This document shows, piece by piece, positions 2,441 through 15,433 of a stretch of 15,550 bases of DNA. A program made the position numbers and the translations under genes. The notes under the pieces were generated by a model. The model was not told the origin of the DNA. It did not search any database and saw nothing but the letters and a program-made list of their open reading frames with translations. Position 1 is the first letter of the stretch; every line of letters starts with the position of its first letter. This DNA comes from an uncultured Nitrospirota bacterium (GTDB taxonomy: Bacteria > Nitrospinota > Nitrospinia > SZUA-224): assembly GCA_913009285.1 (NCBI GenBank), contig CAJVYE010000004.1, positions 1-15,550 of the forward strand. The letters are read 5' to 3'.

Positions 2441-3967
2441 CTATTCTTCTTTGGATGATCCTCTGTTTAACGTTTTGACTTTTAAGTTTTTCAAAAAATT
2501 ATAGCGTTTATACGCAATGGGGTGATCTGGATCCAAATCCAATACTTCCTGATAATATTGCTTGGCTGTTTGATGGTCTTTGCGAACAAAGGCCTTGTTG
2601 GCCTTTTTCAATTTATCCTTAATTTTTTTTTGTCTTATAGCTTCCCATTTTTTATGTTGTTTTACTAAACTATATCGATAAGGATTTTCTTTTAGTTCCT
2701 CTATGGCTACTTTTATTTTCTGGATCGCCAAGTAAATTGCTTTAGAATTTTGATCATTATCATAAATTTTACGAGCTTCAGATAGAGCAGATTCAACTGT
2801 TGCTTTAGGCAAAAGGGTTGTTTTTTTAGGCTCTAGCTCTACTTTTACTTCTGCGACTTTGGGCACTACCTTTTTTACAATAGCCTTGCGTTTTATTGGC
2901 TTTAGTCTTTTTTTGCTTAACTTAATCTTTCGGGTTTTTTGGGCTTCCTCAAAATTTTTGTAAATCATTGCTATGAACTGTTCATCTTCGGAAGCCAATT
3001 CGTATTCATCATTGCCTTCGGTTGGTTCTTCAAGATACGCTTCAGTTGCTTTGACGGCATCGTACGCCTTCTTAATATCTCCTTCCTCATCCATTTTTCG
3101 CGCAAATTTTAAAGCCAAGGCCACCAATGCTTTTTCGTCATTTTTATTAAGTTTAATATTAATCCTTCTTAATTCTTCAAGGGTAATTTGAATATCTACC
3201 AACGTTTTATCATCATACTTTGCCTGACTCAAAAGCTCGACCAGATTATTATATTTCTTATCATAGTTTCTTTCGAAAGTGCTTAATTTAGCTTTGATTT
3301 TCATAAATTCTTTTTCAGCCTTTTTATGTTCGGCATCGCCAGGATTACTTAAATCCATAGCCCTTTGGCAATATTCCATAGCCCATAAATATTTATTGAA
3401 ATGTTCTATGTTATTACTTGTGAGGTGTTTGGAACGATTTACGTAATATCTAGCTGTTGCCTGAACACCCTCTTTAACTTTTTCACATCGATCGACATCT
3501 TCGGGTTTTAGGTCTTGTTTAGAACATCGTTCTTTGTTAAAAAAAGTGGCTGCAGTCACGTAATCGCCGCGTTGTAAAGCTGCAAAGGCATATTCACGGT
3601 TGGTTAATTTGAATTTTTCAAAATTTTTCTGCGGAGACAAATGAGTACAAGCAGCCGCTGAGGCAACCAGGTAAGCTAAAAAAGCAAGAGTATAAATTTT
3701 CCTAAATCTTGCCAAATGTTTTATGTCGTCCGATGAATTTAGCACATCAGAGACTAAATTGAGAGCCTGTCCTGTTTCAATATCTCGCTCAATGTTAGGA
3801 ATGAAAAGGTTTTTTTTAAGAGTTGGAACATCCGCCTTTTTAGATTGAAAAAACTTGTCTACTTTGAAACGCGCTGACGCCTCAGGCCGGGACTGAGTTA
3901 GCGCTTTGCAGCTTTTTTGGAATTCAGCCGGATTGAACCTTGGGTGAGTGTGAGGGCTAATATTCAT
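2441..3967 (-). CDS. TPR-containing predicted lipoprotein, function unknown
   Basis: From the ATG at 3967 the product is 508 residues; a TTG at 3988 would add seven. About 85-90 residues into this frame there is a basic stretch (RFRK), a hydrophobic run and SAAAC, which together look like a lipoprotein signal with Cys as the lipid site. That implies the true start may be the TTG at 3715, giving a 22-residue signal followed by the Cys; I see no good ribosome binding site for any choice. The mature part is helical and charged. It has a tyrosine- and alanine-rich helical region, a strongly basic linker (about 350-376 of the longest form) and a C-terminal TPR-like unit ending in a typical LDLDPDHPIAY motif. 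The protein probably sits at the cell envelope and may scaffold others. The gene is AT-rich (18 of 60 bases GC in 2701-2760), unlike the convergent cyclase. I do not recognise a specific family. Confidence 0.65.
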   Translation of the reverse strand: MNISPHTHPRFNPAEFQKSCKALTQSRPEASARFKVDKFFQSKKADVPTLKKNLFIPNIERDIETGQALNLVSDVLNSSDDIKHLARFRKIYTLAFLAYLVASAAACTHLSPQKNFEKFKLTNREYAFAALQRGDYVTAATFFNKERCSKQDLKPEDVDRCEKVKEGVQATARYYVNRSKHLTSNNIEHFNKYLWAMEYCQRAMDLSNPGDAEHKKAEKEFMKIKAKLSTFERNYDKKYNNLVELLSQAKYDDKTLVDIQITLEELRRINIKLNKNDEKALVALALKFARKMDEEGDIKKAYDAVKATEAYLEEPTEGNDEYELASEDEQFIAMIYKNFEEAQKTRKIKLSKKRLKPIKRKAIVKKVVPKVAEVKVELEPKKTTLLPKATVESALSEARKIYDNDQNSKAIYLAIQKIKVAIEELKENPYRYSLVKQHKKWEAIRQKKIKDKLKKANKAFVRKDHQTAKQYYQEVLDLDPDHPIAYKRYNFLKNLKVKTLNRGSSKEE

Positions 3968-4625: not shown

Positions 4626-4886
4626 ATGGATTTTGAATTTGATTCCCAAAAAAGCGACAGCAATAAGAAAAAACATAGGATTGATTTCTATGAAGCTCAA
4701 AAACTGTGGGATGATCCTGATTTAATTGAAATTCCTTTTAAAACCAGTGATGAACAAAGATATTTAGTAATTGGAAAAATATTAGGAAAGTATTGGTCAG
4801 GAATAATTACTTATCGTGGAGAAAAGGTAAGAATTATTTCCGTAAGACGATCAAGGAAAGAGGAGGTTGAATTATATGAAAGCTAA
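4626..4886 (+). CDS. brnT: BrnT-family toxin (DUF497)
   Basis: The 86-residue protein fits the BrnT family, type II toxins with a RelE-like ribonuclease fold that cut RNA and stall translation. The family pattern is visible. It has an N-terminal FEFDSQKSDSNKKKHRI segment matching the usual start (aromatic/acidic, then a Lys-His before a Phe-Glu/Tyr-Glu-Ala stretch). A central RYLVIGKILGK strand pair and the C-terminal VRIISVRRSRKEE motif with its Arg/Glu residues follow. The length is typical (about 85-100). The ribosome binding site is weak (aaggt around 4605-4609). The stop overlaps the start of the antitoxin by 11 bases, and toxin-first order is normal for BrnTA. Confidence 0.85.
   Translation: MDFEFDSQKSDSNKKKHRIDFYEAQKLWDDPDLIEIPFKTSDEQRYLVIGKILGKYWSGIITYRGEKVRIISVRRSRKEEVELYES
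4861..4866 (+). promoter_or_regulatory. Ribosome binding site deciding the brnA start
   Basis: AGGAGG lies directly before an in-frame TTG at 4867 (no spacing) and 9 bases before ATG at 4876. The spacing favours the ATG as the antitoxin start. The site lies inside the brnT coding sequence, consistent with strong, coupled translation of the antitoxin. Confidence 0.75.
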
Positions 4887-5100
4887 AGATATTGACAAAA
4901 AATTTGATGAAGGAAAGGATATCTCCAAACACCTTGATGTTTCAAAAGCCGGAAGACCGAAGCAAGAACAGAAAAGGGTTAATGTAGACTTCCCTTTATG
5001 GATGATACAGCAATTAGATAAAGAAGCAAGACGGTTAGGTGTTCCTCGTCAGTCAATAATTAAAGTATGGGTAGCTGAACGGCTTGAAAAAGCGTCTTGA
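4876..5100 (+). CDS. brnA: BrnA-type ribbon-helix-helix antitoxin
   Basis: The 74-residue protein neutralises BrnT and probably represses the shared promoter. Its C-terminal half is a ribbon-helix-helix domain: a short beta strand (RVNVDFPLWM), a helix (IQQLDKEARRLG) and a second helix after VPRQSIIKVWVAERL. The N-terminal half (about 1-30) is charged, with KPG-like basic residues, and likely wraps the toxin. It overlaps brnT by 11 bases, so the two are translationally coupled. The gene runs convergently into comM, with the two stop codons only 15 bases apart and no terminator that I can see. Confidence 0.82.
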   Translation: MKAKDIDKKFDEGKDISKHLDVSKAGRPKQEQKRVNVDFPLWMIQQLDKEARRLGVPRQSIIKVWVAERLEKAS

Positions 5101-6753: not shown

Positions 6754-6788
6754 AAATCGAAAATCGACAATCGTAAATCGAAAATAAA
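6754..6788. repeat. Heptamer tandem repeat upstream of comM
   Basis: Five 7-base units in register, with aaatcga as the main unit (6754-6760, 6761-6767, 6775-6781) and diverged copies between and after. It lies in the 118-base gap between the amidase stop and the comM start, about 75 bases before the comM ATG. It shares the 7-bp period of the arrays near flaG, hisH and hisF. Confidence 0.75.
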
Positions 6789-11963: not shown

Positions 11964-11979
11964 ATATAGATATTACCAT

Positions 11980-11997
11980 AAATGTAAGCGTTCACAG
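11980..11997. repeat. 18-bp direct repeat, copy 1
   Basis: AAATGTAAGCGTTCACAG here is identical to bases 12581-12598. Each copy begins one heptamer-repeat region: this one before flaG, the other before hisH. Confidence 0.9.
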
Positions 11998-12174
11998 AAC
12001 ACTGAAATTGGAAATTGGAAATTGGAAATTAGGTAATAGTTCGACCTGTGCGGTTAGCTGTTAGCCATTAGCTTCTGGATAAAATAGTCTCCTCTTTGCT
12101 AACGGCTAATAGCTAATGGCTAACAGCACAGGTTGAGAAAACTGTAAACCGATAACTGTGAACTGATAACTGAT
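11990..12174. repeat. Inverted pair of heptamer arrays upstream of flaG
   Basis: The left half (11990-12073) is 12 consecutive 7-base blocks in one phase. The unit drifts from gttcaca through four near-identical gaaattg copies (12004-12031) to gttagct-type copies (12053-12073). The right half (12098-12174) is 11 blocks in its own single phase, moving from gctaacg-type to aactgat-type units. The halves mirror each other: 12057-12073 pairs perfectly with 12111-12127 (17 bp), 12044-12051 with 12126-12133 (8 bp), and gttcacag (11990-11997) with ctgtgaac (12156-12163). It ends 11 bases before the flaG ATG. Confidence 0.8.
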
Positions 12175-12185
12175 TAGAAGTATAG

Positions 12186-12575
12186 ATGGCAATACAATCC
12201 ATAAATATACCGACGATAGTCCTTGAACCCGGTAGGACGAATGTATCCCGGGAGATCAAAAAAGCTGTTCCTGCAAATGATCAGGTGCCGGAGCCTATCC
12301 AATCGTCAGGTTCTGCCCCCCAGAATAAAATCGAATATCTGGTAGACAAGGTAACAGAATTAAGCAGAAATCTGAACATTAAACTCTCTTTTTCCATTGA
12401 CGAAGAGTTGAACATGGTGATCGTTACGATTACCAGACCGGGAATAGAACCCGGGAGTGAACTAGAGGTCATCCGCCAGATCCCCCCTGAGGAGATGGTG
12501 GAATTTGCCAGAAGATTTAAGGAACTAAATGATGGCGGGGAAACGGAAGTGTTTATACCCGGCCTGAAAGTTTAA
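12186..12575 (+). CDS. flaG: FlaG-family protein
   Basis: The 129-residue protein matches the FlaG family in its C-terminal half. The hallmarks are NIKLSFSIDEELNMVIVTI followed by VIRQIPPEEMVEFARRFKEL (residues about 62-115). FlaG proteins are small, often encoded next to flagellin and cap genes, and affect filament length; their mechanism is not settled. The N-terminal half (1-50) is low in predicted structure and rich in Pro/Val. Between the two strands of the domain there is a PGIEPGSE insert not usual in the family. No other flagellar gene is nearby. It stands alone between the ABC genes and hisH, bounded on both sides by heptamer-repeat regions. The start ATG at 12186 has only a weak purine site (gaag, 12177-12180). 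Confidence 0.8.
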   Translation: MAIQSINIPTIVLEPGRTNVSREIKKAVPANDQVPEPIQSSGSAPQNKIEYLVDKVTELSRNLNIKLSFSIDEELNMVIVTITRPGIEPGSELEVIRQIPPEEMVEFARRFKELNDGGETEVFIPGLKV

Positions 12576-12580
12576 GTTTT

Positions 12581-12598
12581 AAATGTAAGCGTTCACAG
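12581..12598. repeat. 18-bp direct repeat, copy 2
   Basis: Identical to 11980-11997. It begins right after the flaG stop codon and leads into the left heptamer array. Confidence 0.9.
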
Positions 12599-12625
12599 TT
12601 CACGGTTTACAGTTAACAGTTGATG
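12591..12625. repeat. Heptamer array, left arm (before hisH)
   Basis: Five consecutive 7-base units starting at 12591, drifting from gttcaca to gttgatg and all beginning with GTT. It is inverted relative to the array at 12941-12968: gtttacagtt (12605-12614) pairs with aactgtaaac (12940-12949), and gttcacag (12591-12598) with ctgtgaac (12963-12970). Confidence 0.8.
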
Positions 12626-12636
12626 AAAACAGAATG

Positions 12637-12913
12637 GTAACTATTCAGCGAATTATAAAATTGTTTGTTTTAGCCCTGAAGGGGCATAAGCACATAGCCG
12701 TGGGTAAAGCCCACGGACCAAGATATATCAAAATTTATAGCCCTGAAAGGGCGGAAGAAAATAGTTATTGTTTCTTCGCTCAGATTTATCTTTCACCCCT
12801 TCGGGGCTGGATGTTTCTTTTTTTCCTTTATCCGTGGGCTTCACCCACGGCTATATGCTTTCAGCCCTTCGGGCCTAAATTAGATTTATCAAAAAAATAC
12901 GCTGAATAGTTAC
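12637..12913. mobile_element. 277-bp non-autonomous element with nested REP-like hairpins
   Basis: The ends are perfect 14-bp inverted repeats, gtaactattcagcg (12637-12650) and its complement (12900-12913). Inside, two long arms mirror each other (12671-12717 against 12831-12877 with a few changes). Each carries a 7-bp GC-rich hairpin (12698-12716 and 12832-12850) plus a short ccctgaagggg or cccttcggg hairpin; two further short hairpins are at 12740-12752 and 12796-12806. ACAGAA flanks both sides (12629-12634 and 12914-12919), a possible imperfect target duplication offset by 2 bases on the left. It has no transposase gene, so it would depend on one elsewhere, such as a RAYT-type enzyme. Confidence 0.75.
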
Positions 12914-12940
12914 ACAGAAAGTAAAAGGAAATTGAAAAAA

Positions 12941-12968
12941 ACTGTAAACTGTAAACTGATAACTGTGA
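12941..12968. repeat. Heptamer array, right arm (before hisH)
   Basis: Four 7-base units in phase: actgtaa twice, then two variants. It lies on the far side of the 277-bp element from its inverted partner at 12591-12625 and ends 19 bases before the hisH ATG. Confidence 0.8.
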
Positions 12969-12987
12969 ACGGGTACGGGAGACTTAT

Positions 12988-13612: not shown

Positions 13613-14341
13613 ATGCTTATTATACCGGCTGTAGATATCAGGAAAGGTAAGTGTGTCAGGCTTCTTCAAGGGAGAATAGATAGAGAGACTGTCTATTCTG
13701 ATGATCCGATATCAATGGCGCAGAGATGGGAGGAATTGGGTAGTGAGCTTATCCATGTTGTGGATCTCGATGGTGCATTTGAGGGGAGACCCGGGAATAT
13801 GGATATTATTAAGAGGATGATCGCTTCTCTCAGGATTCAGGTGGAAGTAGGGGGTGGTATCAGGGATATAGAGACCATAGAGGATTATATTACAGGTGGT
13901 GCCAGCATGGTAATATTAGGGACAGTGGCGTTAGAGGATCCTGGATTTGTAGAGGATGTATGTAATAGGTTTCCAGGCAGGGTCACTGTCGGTATAGATG
14001 CAAGAGACGGTTATGTAGCTATTAAGGGTTGGACCGAGGTTACACGGGAGAAGGCATCCATGTTAGCAAGGAGATTTGATGGTTTGGGTATCACTGCTAT
14101 CATTTATACAGATATTAAGAGAGATGGGATGCTAGTTGGTCCCAATGTCGAAGGTATTAAGGAATTTGCCTCTTCGACAGATATCCCTGTGATTGCATCA
14201 GGAGGTATATCCGGGATAGAGGATATAAAGAGGGTGTTAGATATTGAAGAATATGGTGTTACAGGTATTATAGTAGGAAAGGCCATATACGATGGAACGC
14301 TCGATTTTCAGGAAGCAGTTAAAATAGCGAATAGTCGTTAG
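13613..14341 (+). CDS. hisA: ProFAR isomerase HisA
   Basis: The 242-residue protein is a (beta-alpha)8 barrel that isomerises ProFAR to PRFAR, the substrate of HisHF. The catalytic aspartates are D8 (IPAVDIRKGKCVRL) and D167 (YTDIKRDGM); phosphate-binding glycines are at VGGGI (79-83) and ASGGI (195-199). I chose ATG 13613 because family members begin with this MLIIPAVD motif. A TTG at 13592 in the same frame would add seven residues read from the end of hisH and is unlikely. The ribosome site ggagag lies inside hisH, about 13 bases upstream. The last few codons, including the stop, fall inside a heptamer array (14327-14354), so the C-terminus has been written by a repeat. Confidence 0.97.
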   Translation: MLIIPAVDIRKGKCVRLLQGRIDRETVYSDDPISMAQRWEELGSELIHVVDLDGAFEGRPGNMDIIKRMIASLRIQVEVGGGIRDIETIEDYITGGASMVILGTVALEDPGFVEDVCNRFPGRVTVGIDARDGYVAIKGWTEVTREKASMLARRFDGLGITAIIYTDIKRDGMLVGPNVEGIKEFASSTDIPVIASGGISGIEDIKRVLDIEEYGVTGIIVGKAIYDGTLDFQEAVKIANSR

Positions 14342-14436
14342 TGAATAGTATTTAAAAGGATAAATATAAATACCTAATAGGAAATGTAATCTTTTGAATA
14401 CTAAAAACTATATACTAACGACTATTCACTATGATG
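14327..14436. repeat. Inverted heptamer arrays between hisA and hisF
   Basis: The left arm (14327-14354) has four 7-base units such as gcgaata and gtgaata, starting inside hisA. The right arm (14409-14436) has four units in the opposite sense. Bases 14326-14342 pair with 14414-14430 at 16 of 17 positions, forming a large hairpin with an AT-rich loop. It ends just before hisF; the hisF ribosome site (gagg, 14436-14439) follows at once. It could slow or end transcription between hisA and hisF, but there is no T run. Confidence 0.75.
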
Positions 14437-14445
14437 AGGTTTTAG

Positions 14446-15367: not shown

Positions 15368-15433
15368 AGATCGGAAGAGCACACGTCTGAACTCCAGTCA
15401 CATTCCTTTATCTCGTATGCCGTCTTCTGCTTG
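15368..15433 (+). other. Indexed TruSeq adapter (not genomic)
   Basis: Starts with AGATCGGAAGAGC and continues through the standard indexed adapter to the end of the P7 primer (TCTTCTGCTTG). The 8 bases at 15402-15409 (attccttt) occupy the index position, and I recall them as TruSeq index 27. Library contamination. Confidence 0.97.

Follow-up and report, generated by a model that had tools for sequence, protein, structure and literature searches.

Why should intergenic DNA keep a period of seven bases while the repeated unit itself changes? The question is raised by a short region just before a flaG gene in the window analysed here, a stretch of 15,550 nucleotides which is the entire contig C4 of a 1.51 Mb source genome (G000; 304 contigs, 58.9% complete). 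The preliminary description divided positions 11990-12073 into twelve consecutive heptamers and positions 12098-12174 into eleven; this segmentation is borne out as written. In the left half, identity at lag 7 is 0.636, compared with 0.259 in dinucleotide shuffles (z 8.0; 0/2000 as high); in the right half it is 0.586 (z 6.0; 0/2000). The other lags, 2-6 and 8-13, give identities of 0.14-0.33 in both halves. The period is indeed conserved while the unit changes, as had been claimed: several unit families are found within the one stretch.

Lag 7 is also in excess elsewhere in the genome. In a sample of 160 kb (20 stretches, about 10.6% of G000), 21 arrays have lag 7, whereas every other lag between 4 and 12 has 0-5. 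Seventeen of the 21 are intergenic (one is a poly-A run), and four lie beneath ORFs of at least 80 aa. Intergenic autocorrelation in the sample is highest at lag 7 (0.3135, compared with 0.279-0.295 at lags 3-6 and 8-13). The preliminary description was to be given up if the rest of the genome showed no such excess; since it does, the description survives its own test.

Element ends and target duplications

The arrays are the arms of IS66-type gene-less elements with terminal inverted repeats and 8-bp target duplications. They are not free-standing repeats like the STRR sequences with which they had been compared. A 14-base sequence, GTAAGCGTTCACAG, stands at 11984 and again at 12585, beyond flaG; G000 has dozens of copies of it and of a sister sequence, GTAACCGTTCACGG, often as facing pairs. 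The end pattern GTAASCGTTCACRG has 81 exact occurrences in G000 (46+35) and is found exactly in six of 40 genomes, G000 included. With up to two mismatches allowed, the end gives 75 matches in its own genome and a reversed-pattern control gives none. Each end site was paired with its nearest facing partner, which yielded 66 elements in five genomes (31 in G000, 15 in G003, 11 in G007, 8 in G001 and 1 in G004); the set was drawn from most of the end sites in G000 and part of those in G001, G003 and G007. An exact 8-bp target duplication is present at 23 of the 66, compared with 0.51 when flanks are shuffled, and a duplication with at most one mismatch at 33 (1.51 shuffled). At lengths 4-7 and 9-12 there are 0-1 exact duplications among the 66. 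These are transposable elements.

The terminal inverted repeats begin with GTAA, as expected of the IS66 family. ISDge4 is given with ends GTGACTACTCAGCA/GTAACTGCTCAGCA and an 8-bp repeat in the relevant part of PMC12898284, and 8-bp repeats are listed for two Paracoccus IS66 elements in that of PMC3281130. At one locus (L393, genome G093), 120 bp separate the outer edge of GTAACCGTTCACAG from the start of an ORF for a PF03050 transposase (E 1.5e-22); a single end is seen there, because the locus stops before the ORF does. At another (L043, in G001) the outer edge of the end GTAACTATTCAGCG lies 115 bp from a match to an IS66 transposase fragment. An IS66 transposase near the end, and a transposase fragment near a related end, place it in the IS66 family. 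G000 itself, at 58.9% completeness, yielded no IS66 transposase. The IS66 transposases of G003 and G007 were considered as drivers and rejected, as the end (up to three mismatches) is absent within 1.5 kb on each side of them. In the 20 other genomes sampled for four-helix-bundle (4HB; PF05635, S23p/IVP, Avd-like) loci, the exact end pattern occurs at five sites in four genomes: the element L354 described below, the IS66 transposase of L393, and three sites which have neither visible arms nor a 4HB frame. The elements thus resemble IS66 elements (ISBst12 group, e.g. ISDge4) and their miniature derivatives in their GTAA-beginning ends, 8-bp duplication, and a transposase or fragment beside the same ends elsewhere. 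They differ in having no transposase inside, long degenerate 7-bp arms, and a parent which carries a 4HB gene instead.

Anatomy of the stretch before flaG

The repeats extend further than had been described: they cover 11984-12174 and 12585-12976, and an inverted pair related to them lies at about 14330-14440. The first of these stretches is a mosaic of three parts. The left arm of one element, A, occupies 11984-12041; it is followed by an inner element at 12042-12135, and 12136-12174 is the right arm of yet another element. Element A begins on the forward strand with its left terminal inverted repeat, GTAAGCGTTCACAG (11984-11997), an IS66-type end recognised by end-pattern matches in its own genome. 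The arm is of 'a' type (11984-12041, forward strand): the end is followed by GAACACTG, three GAAATTG units, GAAATTA and GGTAATA, and the same arm recurs in many copies in G000 and some in G001. The inner element, to which no strand is assigned, was found as inverted repeat I5; it has CRACCTGTGC ends and arms of GTTAGCN heptamers, which form a perfect inverted repeat (12057-12073 and 12111-12127; 17/17 bases). One other copy was found in G000 (L019, contig C29). Its loop is inverted, it has an exact 8-bp duplication, AAAAAACT, and it is nested within a 'c'-type element which has its own target duplication; no copies were found in G001 or G002. The remaining part (12136-12174, reverse strand) is a 'c'-type right arm, AACTGTA AACCGAT AACTGTG AACTGAT AACTGAT, made of inverted GTTCACA units and matching the arm of L019, L071 and L079. 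This arm has no clear terminal repeat. If the right end is allowed up to three mismatches, a 186-bp candidate element ends at about 12169; its flanks are alike at 2/8 bases.

The two arrays had been taken for mirror halves, which holds in part. The GTTAGC blocks are perfectly inverted, being the only long perfect inverted arms in 11984-12174, and the terminal GTTCACA is mirrored by AACTGTGAAC. The GAAATTG run, however, has no inverse partner in the stretch, which is not one mirrored array. Four of the 23 'heptamers' (GTTCGAC and CTGTGCG; GCACAGG and TTGAGAA) are element ends and junctions rather than repeat units. The unit type changes at 12041/12042 and 12135/12136 because different elements abut there. 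That the register is kept across 12041/12042 has a probability of 1 in 7 by chance.

The sequence CCATAAAT occurs three times in the window, at 3383, 11976 and 12199. The second occurrence (11976-11983, forward strand) adjoins the left end of element A and the third (12199-12206) lies inside the flaG ORF; the pair is a possible target duplication, unproven because the copy in flaG adjoins no terminal repeat. A clean target duplication is missing both from element A and from element B, which lies beyond flaG, and the right end of A is not clear. G001 and G002 contain no match to FlaG, and the best match of the window's ABC transporter in G001, G002 and G003 is 34% identical, so there is no orthologous site for an empty-site comparison.

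The stretch may have arisen naturally, by recombination among nested copies, or it may be a chimera of the assembly. An artefact, in which the mosaic arose by a chimeric short-read join at a repeat, is considered unlikely. It would fit the left and right arms, which come from different element types, the missing target duplication, the 304 contigs of the genome, and the unremoved adapter sequence in the same contig; however, a natural recombinant of nested copies would look identical, and such a join leaves the element families (66 paired elements in five genomes) untouched.

Other repeats and features of the window

The FlaG gene (12186-12575, forward strand; Pfam PF03646, E 1.7e-13) lies between elements A and B. 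Element B (12585-12976, forward strand) is of 'c' type, and its ends, at 12585-12598 and 12963-12976, belong to inverted repeat I2. Its arms consist of GTTCACA, GTTCACG, GTTTACA and GTTAACA units together with inverted AACTGTA and AACTGAT. No target duplication was found around it; the flanks are alike at 2/8 bases. Nested in B is a second IS66-type gene-less element (12637-12913, no strand assigned) with GTAACTATTCAGCG ends, the end that stands near the transposase fragment in G001. It has a duplication, ACAGAATG (12629-12636) and ACAGAAAG (12914-12921), alike at 7/8 bases. A large palindrome of AGCCCTGAAGGGGC / CCGTGGGTAAAGCCCACGG blocks occupies 12669-12879 within this nested element, and CCCTGAAGGGGC-type blocks resembling it are present in elements of L016 and L119. 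The third inverted heptamer pair, GAATAGT CGTTAGT GAATAGT ... ACTATAT ACTAACG ACTATTC (14330-14440, no strand assigned), was read directly from the hisA/hisF junction; TRF reports period 7 at 14397-14418.

Several further features were observed. AAATCGA heptamers are found at 6754-6785 of the window. In the G000 sample, TTTTCGA/AATCGAA inverted pairs recur about 150-200 bp apart (L301, L303); they form a further arm family in which GTAA ends are not visible. Positions 900-1290 of L317, also in G000, hold a long, very regular GGCTAAA array with an inverted partner, which is possibly young. Positions 4626-5100 of the window hold a BrnT-type toxin gene and, after it, a gene for a CopG-type antitoxin. 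At 15368-15433 there is an Illumina adapter inside the contig, presumably TruSeq, followed by poly-A; all sequence to the right of it may be an artefact.

A 4HB gene in the parent element

Remnants of a 4HB gene were found in 16 of 77 sequences, 15 of them in frame (the exception, L021, is in a shifted frame), representing 14 distinct loci. The 77 sequences comprise 75 elements, two of which are the window's, and two window stretches; among the 75, some loci are read more than once, with overlap (L010 three times, L024 and L029 twice each). Elements A and B of the window have no 4HB match at E 0.01. An apparently complete parent, L354, is present in a Desulfobacterales genome (that of locus L194), in which the exact end pattern occurs once. 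This element is 466 bp long. Its left part has the GTAACCGTTCACGG end and GGTTCAC/GGTTTAC heptamers; the 4HB ORF is intact (E 7.1e-34), and beyond it are inverted heptamers and a right end with two mismatches. The target duplication, AAATCCTT/AAATCTTT, agrees at 7/8 bases. The first 49 bp of element B have 84% DNA identity to L354. The S23p/4HB family has solved structures (2GSC, 2RLD). It is called functionally uncharacterized in the part of PMC11270868 that deals with it, where PF05635 is also placed in insertions of CPR rRNA genes; in the relevant section of PMC8700078, 4HB genes are merely listed among strain-specific genes.

The elements could also be ordinary IS66 miniature elements, with subterminal repeats that serve as transposase or host-factor sites and a 4HB gene that is a passenger sometimes picked up. 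Their IS66 ends and 8-bp duplications agree with this, as do the 'c'-type end, which reads into the unit (GTAACC GTTCACG GTTCACG), and the 61 of 77 sequences which have no 4HB remnant at E 0.01. It is nevertheless doubtful, since arms are present at 4HB loci with no recognisable IS66 end, and both unit and period vary among elements, unlike fixed transposase sites.

Repeat arms beside 4HB genes

An array was counted if 35 bp lying no more than 160 bp from a gene reached a lag identity of 0.66 or higher; it had to lie outside the gene in the class and named panels and outside the Pfam match in the independent panel and the BrnT control. The class panel covers 53 loci of the window's class, in 35 of which the ORF was found by motif (32 after removal of duplicates). 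The named panel comprises L126-like 4HB genes from many phyla, the best 80 of 553. The independent panel has 40 of 42 4HB hits (E 2.6e-35 to 2.0e-25) from 20 genomes; one hit with a stop, one partial hit, seven stronger hits and all weaker ones are omitted. Degenerate arrays, mostly of 7- or 8-bp units, stand beside 20/32 genes in the class panel, 34/80 in the named panel (best 80 of 553) and 26/40 in the independent panel, compared with 0/30 BrnT genes of the same class. At the looser threshold of 0.60, the counts are 25/32, 64/80 (again the best 80 of 553) and 36/40; four of the 30 BrnT genes pass, at lags 6, 9 and 11 and none at period 7 or 8. Tiled across the BrnT loci, none of 427 tiles has 7 or 8 as its best lag. 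Tiles farther from the 4HB genes at the same loci reach lag 7 or 8 in 14 of 333 cases, and a larger set of 766 distant control tiles gives 16 at lag 7 and 5 at lag 8.

Arm periods are mostly 7 in the class and independent panels and mostly 8 in the L126-like genes; 6, 9, 11 and 12 are rare. Where both flanks reach 0.66, the period is the same on both sides in 6/6 class loci, 8/8 named loci (best 80 of 553) and 10/10 independent loci; at 0.60 this applies to 10/12, 27/36 (best 80 of 553) and 19/22. The units upstream of a 4HB gene, once reverse-complemented, match those downstream of it, as measured by 6-mer sharing: this is 0.278 at 18 class loci (0.030 shuffled) and 0.309 at 27 named loci (0.114 shuffled), with 0/2000 as high in each case. 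Two 4HB genes, at L349 and L360, have arms with a 6-bp unit, GGTTAA, which shows that pitches other than 7 and 8 occur. The arms around 4HB genes mostly lack recognisable IS66 ends. A terminal repeat with an 8-bp duplication was found around none of the 112 intact 4HB loci tested for it; duplications of lengths 5, 6 and 7 were found at 10, 4 and 2 of these loci. Titles and abstract openings of the open-licence literature yielded no statement of a general link between 4HB genes and repeats.

The proposal that unit family strictly tracks protein phylogeny was rejected. Within the class, unit similarity is weakly related to protein similarity (r 0.14; 60/2000 permutations as high) and period is not (r 0.006); the overall r of 0.51 is probably dominated by related Flavobacteriaceae.

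It had also been suggested that a 7-nt-templated process builds the heptamers, or that a structure of that pitch selects them. No evidence of templated building was found, and periods of 8, occasionally 6 or 9, occur around relatives of the 4HB gene. A protein or structure may read the 7-nt pitch.

Maintenance of phase

In the G000 and G001 elements among the 75, GAAATTN runs have 1-6 units per arm. Since unit number differs among arms, whole units come and go. In the same elements the core is in native orientation relative to the end type in 38 arms and flipped in 12, 'native' being our reading from where the 4HB start and stop lie. The core is thus found in both orientations, and the two copies of the inner element have their loops in opposite orientation; recombination between mirror arms apparently takes place. 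Arm flips, like the mosaic, could in part be assembly errors in a genome of 304 contigs.

Among simple repeats with longer units, heptamers are reported to be the commonest class in most of the genomes surveyed (Mrazek 2007, cited in PMC4679880). The published arrays, as presented in the relevant parts of PMC4679880 and PMC4692102, mostly have one unit per array (some are 'split' sets), with no element ends described, and slippage is mentioned for them in both. Pure replication slippage of STRR-type heptamer repeats, with mirror arms produced by chance inversion, would be in keeping with this abundance and with the polymerase slippage proposed there (PMC4679880 citing Mrazek 2007; PMC4692102), as well as with unit numbers ranging from 1 to 6. 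It is highly improbable in view of the terminal repeats and 8-bp duplications, arms that match as reverse complements, the clustering of changes by unit position in two of the arm sets, and the 0/30 control genes with arrays at 0.66. The suspicion that slippage alone is insufficient was therefore right. Slippage is disfavoured as a full account; it is likely as the step that changes array length.

Positional constraint was tested against random substitutions (1000 replicates). Changes cluster by unit position in the class 7-bp arms (n=22; z 5.6, 0/1000) and in the Flavobacteriaceae 8-bp arms (n=42; z 3.3, 0/1000). Clustering is weak in the other named 8-bp arms (n=29; 26/1000), and it is not significant in the class 8-bp arms (n=9; 114/1000) or in the window's own four arms (121/1000). 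At one Flavobacteriaceae locus, where 25 loci share the downstream gene and 21 share both neighbours, the best lag is 8 in 23/25 upstream and 22/25 downstream flanks, and the units differ. In units anchored on [AG]AG (n=172), C stands at position 7 in 75% and A at position 8 in 76%, with positions 4-6 variable.

Relation to known systems

The closest likeness outside mobile elements is to the intervening sequences (IVS) of 23S rRNA with an S23p ORF, as in Coxiella burnetii. The description in PMC4990558, as far as it concerns the repeats, gives two to three strain-variable GACAGAT heptamers upstream of the S23p ORF. PF05635, inverted terminal arms and variable-number heptamers beside the ORF are common to both systems. 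The window-type elements differ in lying outside rRNA, in their IS66 ends and target duplications, and in having arrays on both sides. Neither the window nor any of 20 4HB loci gives a match in Rfam, to rRNA or otherwise, and none of the 20 4HB genes sits within rRNA. S23p/PF05635 coding is present in the parent L354 and absent, at E 0.01, from elements A and B.

An element acting at the RNA level, like the IVS, would have arms that pair in the transcript, a stem cut by RNase III, and selection for complementarity. The C. burnetii IVS, with the same protein family, a terminal stem and strain-variable heptamers (PMC4990558), offers a precedent, and the window's heptamer stretch is predicted to fold at -62.6 kcal/mol, compared with -40.1 when shuffled (z -5.3). 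The inner palindrome dominates this fold, however. By manual count, the a/b ends do not match in 21 of 29 typed element pairs, evidence against strict pairing of a stem, and the absence of Rfam matches also counts against an RNA-level element. An RNA-level origin is accordingly quite unlikely.

Cyanobacterial STRR sequences are intergenic tandem heptamers. So are the TAACTGA repeats of Beggiatoaceae and the GGGAATC repeats of Xanthomonas, and the window-type arrays share this character. They differ from such simple repeats in that the units vary, with several unit families in one stretch, and the arms are inverted around a core. Bacterial intergenic DNA is enriched in heptamer repeats, for which a 2015 paper (PMC4692102) had no detailed literature to cite; the repeats studied in that paper were generally not found associated with mobile elements.

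Homology between PF05635 and Avd, the accessory protein of diversity-generating retroelements, is suggested in a passage of PMC10053308, and the protein of L127 has a sub-threshold bAvd match. No reverse transcriptase or template repeat was noticed at the 4HB loci, in apparent contrast to such retroelements.

Origin and significance of the arms

The seven-base period is real, and it is to be reinterpreted as belonging to transposon arms and not to a free 7-bp array. The reading that best explains the data as a whole, to which we give a probability of roughly 0.78, is that small non-autonomous mobile elements have these arrays as their inverted arms. A transposase of the IS66 type, working in trans, would have brought 4HB cassettes into the window's genome, where the parent 4HB gene was presumably lost. 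Nesting and recombination would then have joined parts of three elements into the 185-bp stretch. Phase would be kept in three ways: arms change by whole units through slippage; they exchange with the mirror arm by core inversion, which would spread variants in register; and some unit positions are held, most likely through binding of the arm, at that pitch, by the 4HB protein or by a partner.

The wider association of 4HB genes with arms is the part worth following. We propose tentatively, with the odds somewhat against it, that 4HB genes and inverted arms form one widespread bacterial unit, of which the rRNA IVS and the window's IS66-ended elements would be special cases. The arm would be a periodic recognition track with a pitch of 7 or 8 bp and a few fixed positions in each unit, e.g. 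[A/G]AGNNNCA, and its reader would be the pentameric 4HB protein or its partner. If so, the unit would be free to drift while the pitch and the arm-to-arm match stay, and such units would account for many of the degenerate heptamers in bacterial intergenic DNA. Tying heptamers and 4HB genes together makes both testable, as it supplies a defined protein, a repeat and a parent element; the 25 Flavobacteriaceae loci, in which the pitch is constant and the unit drifts, offer a natural series for such tests.
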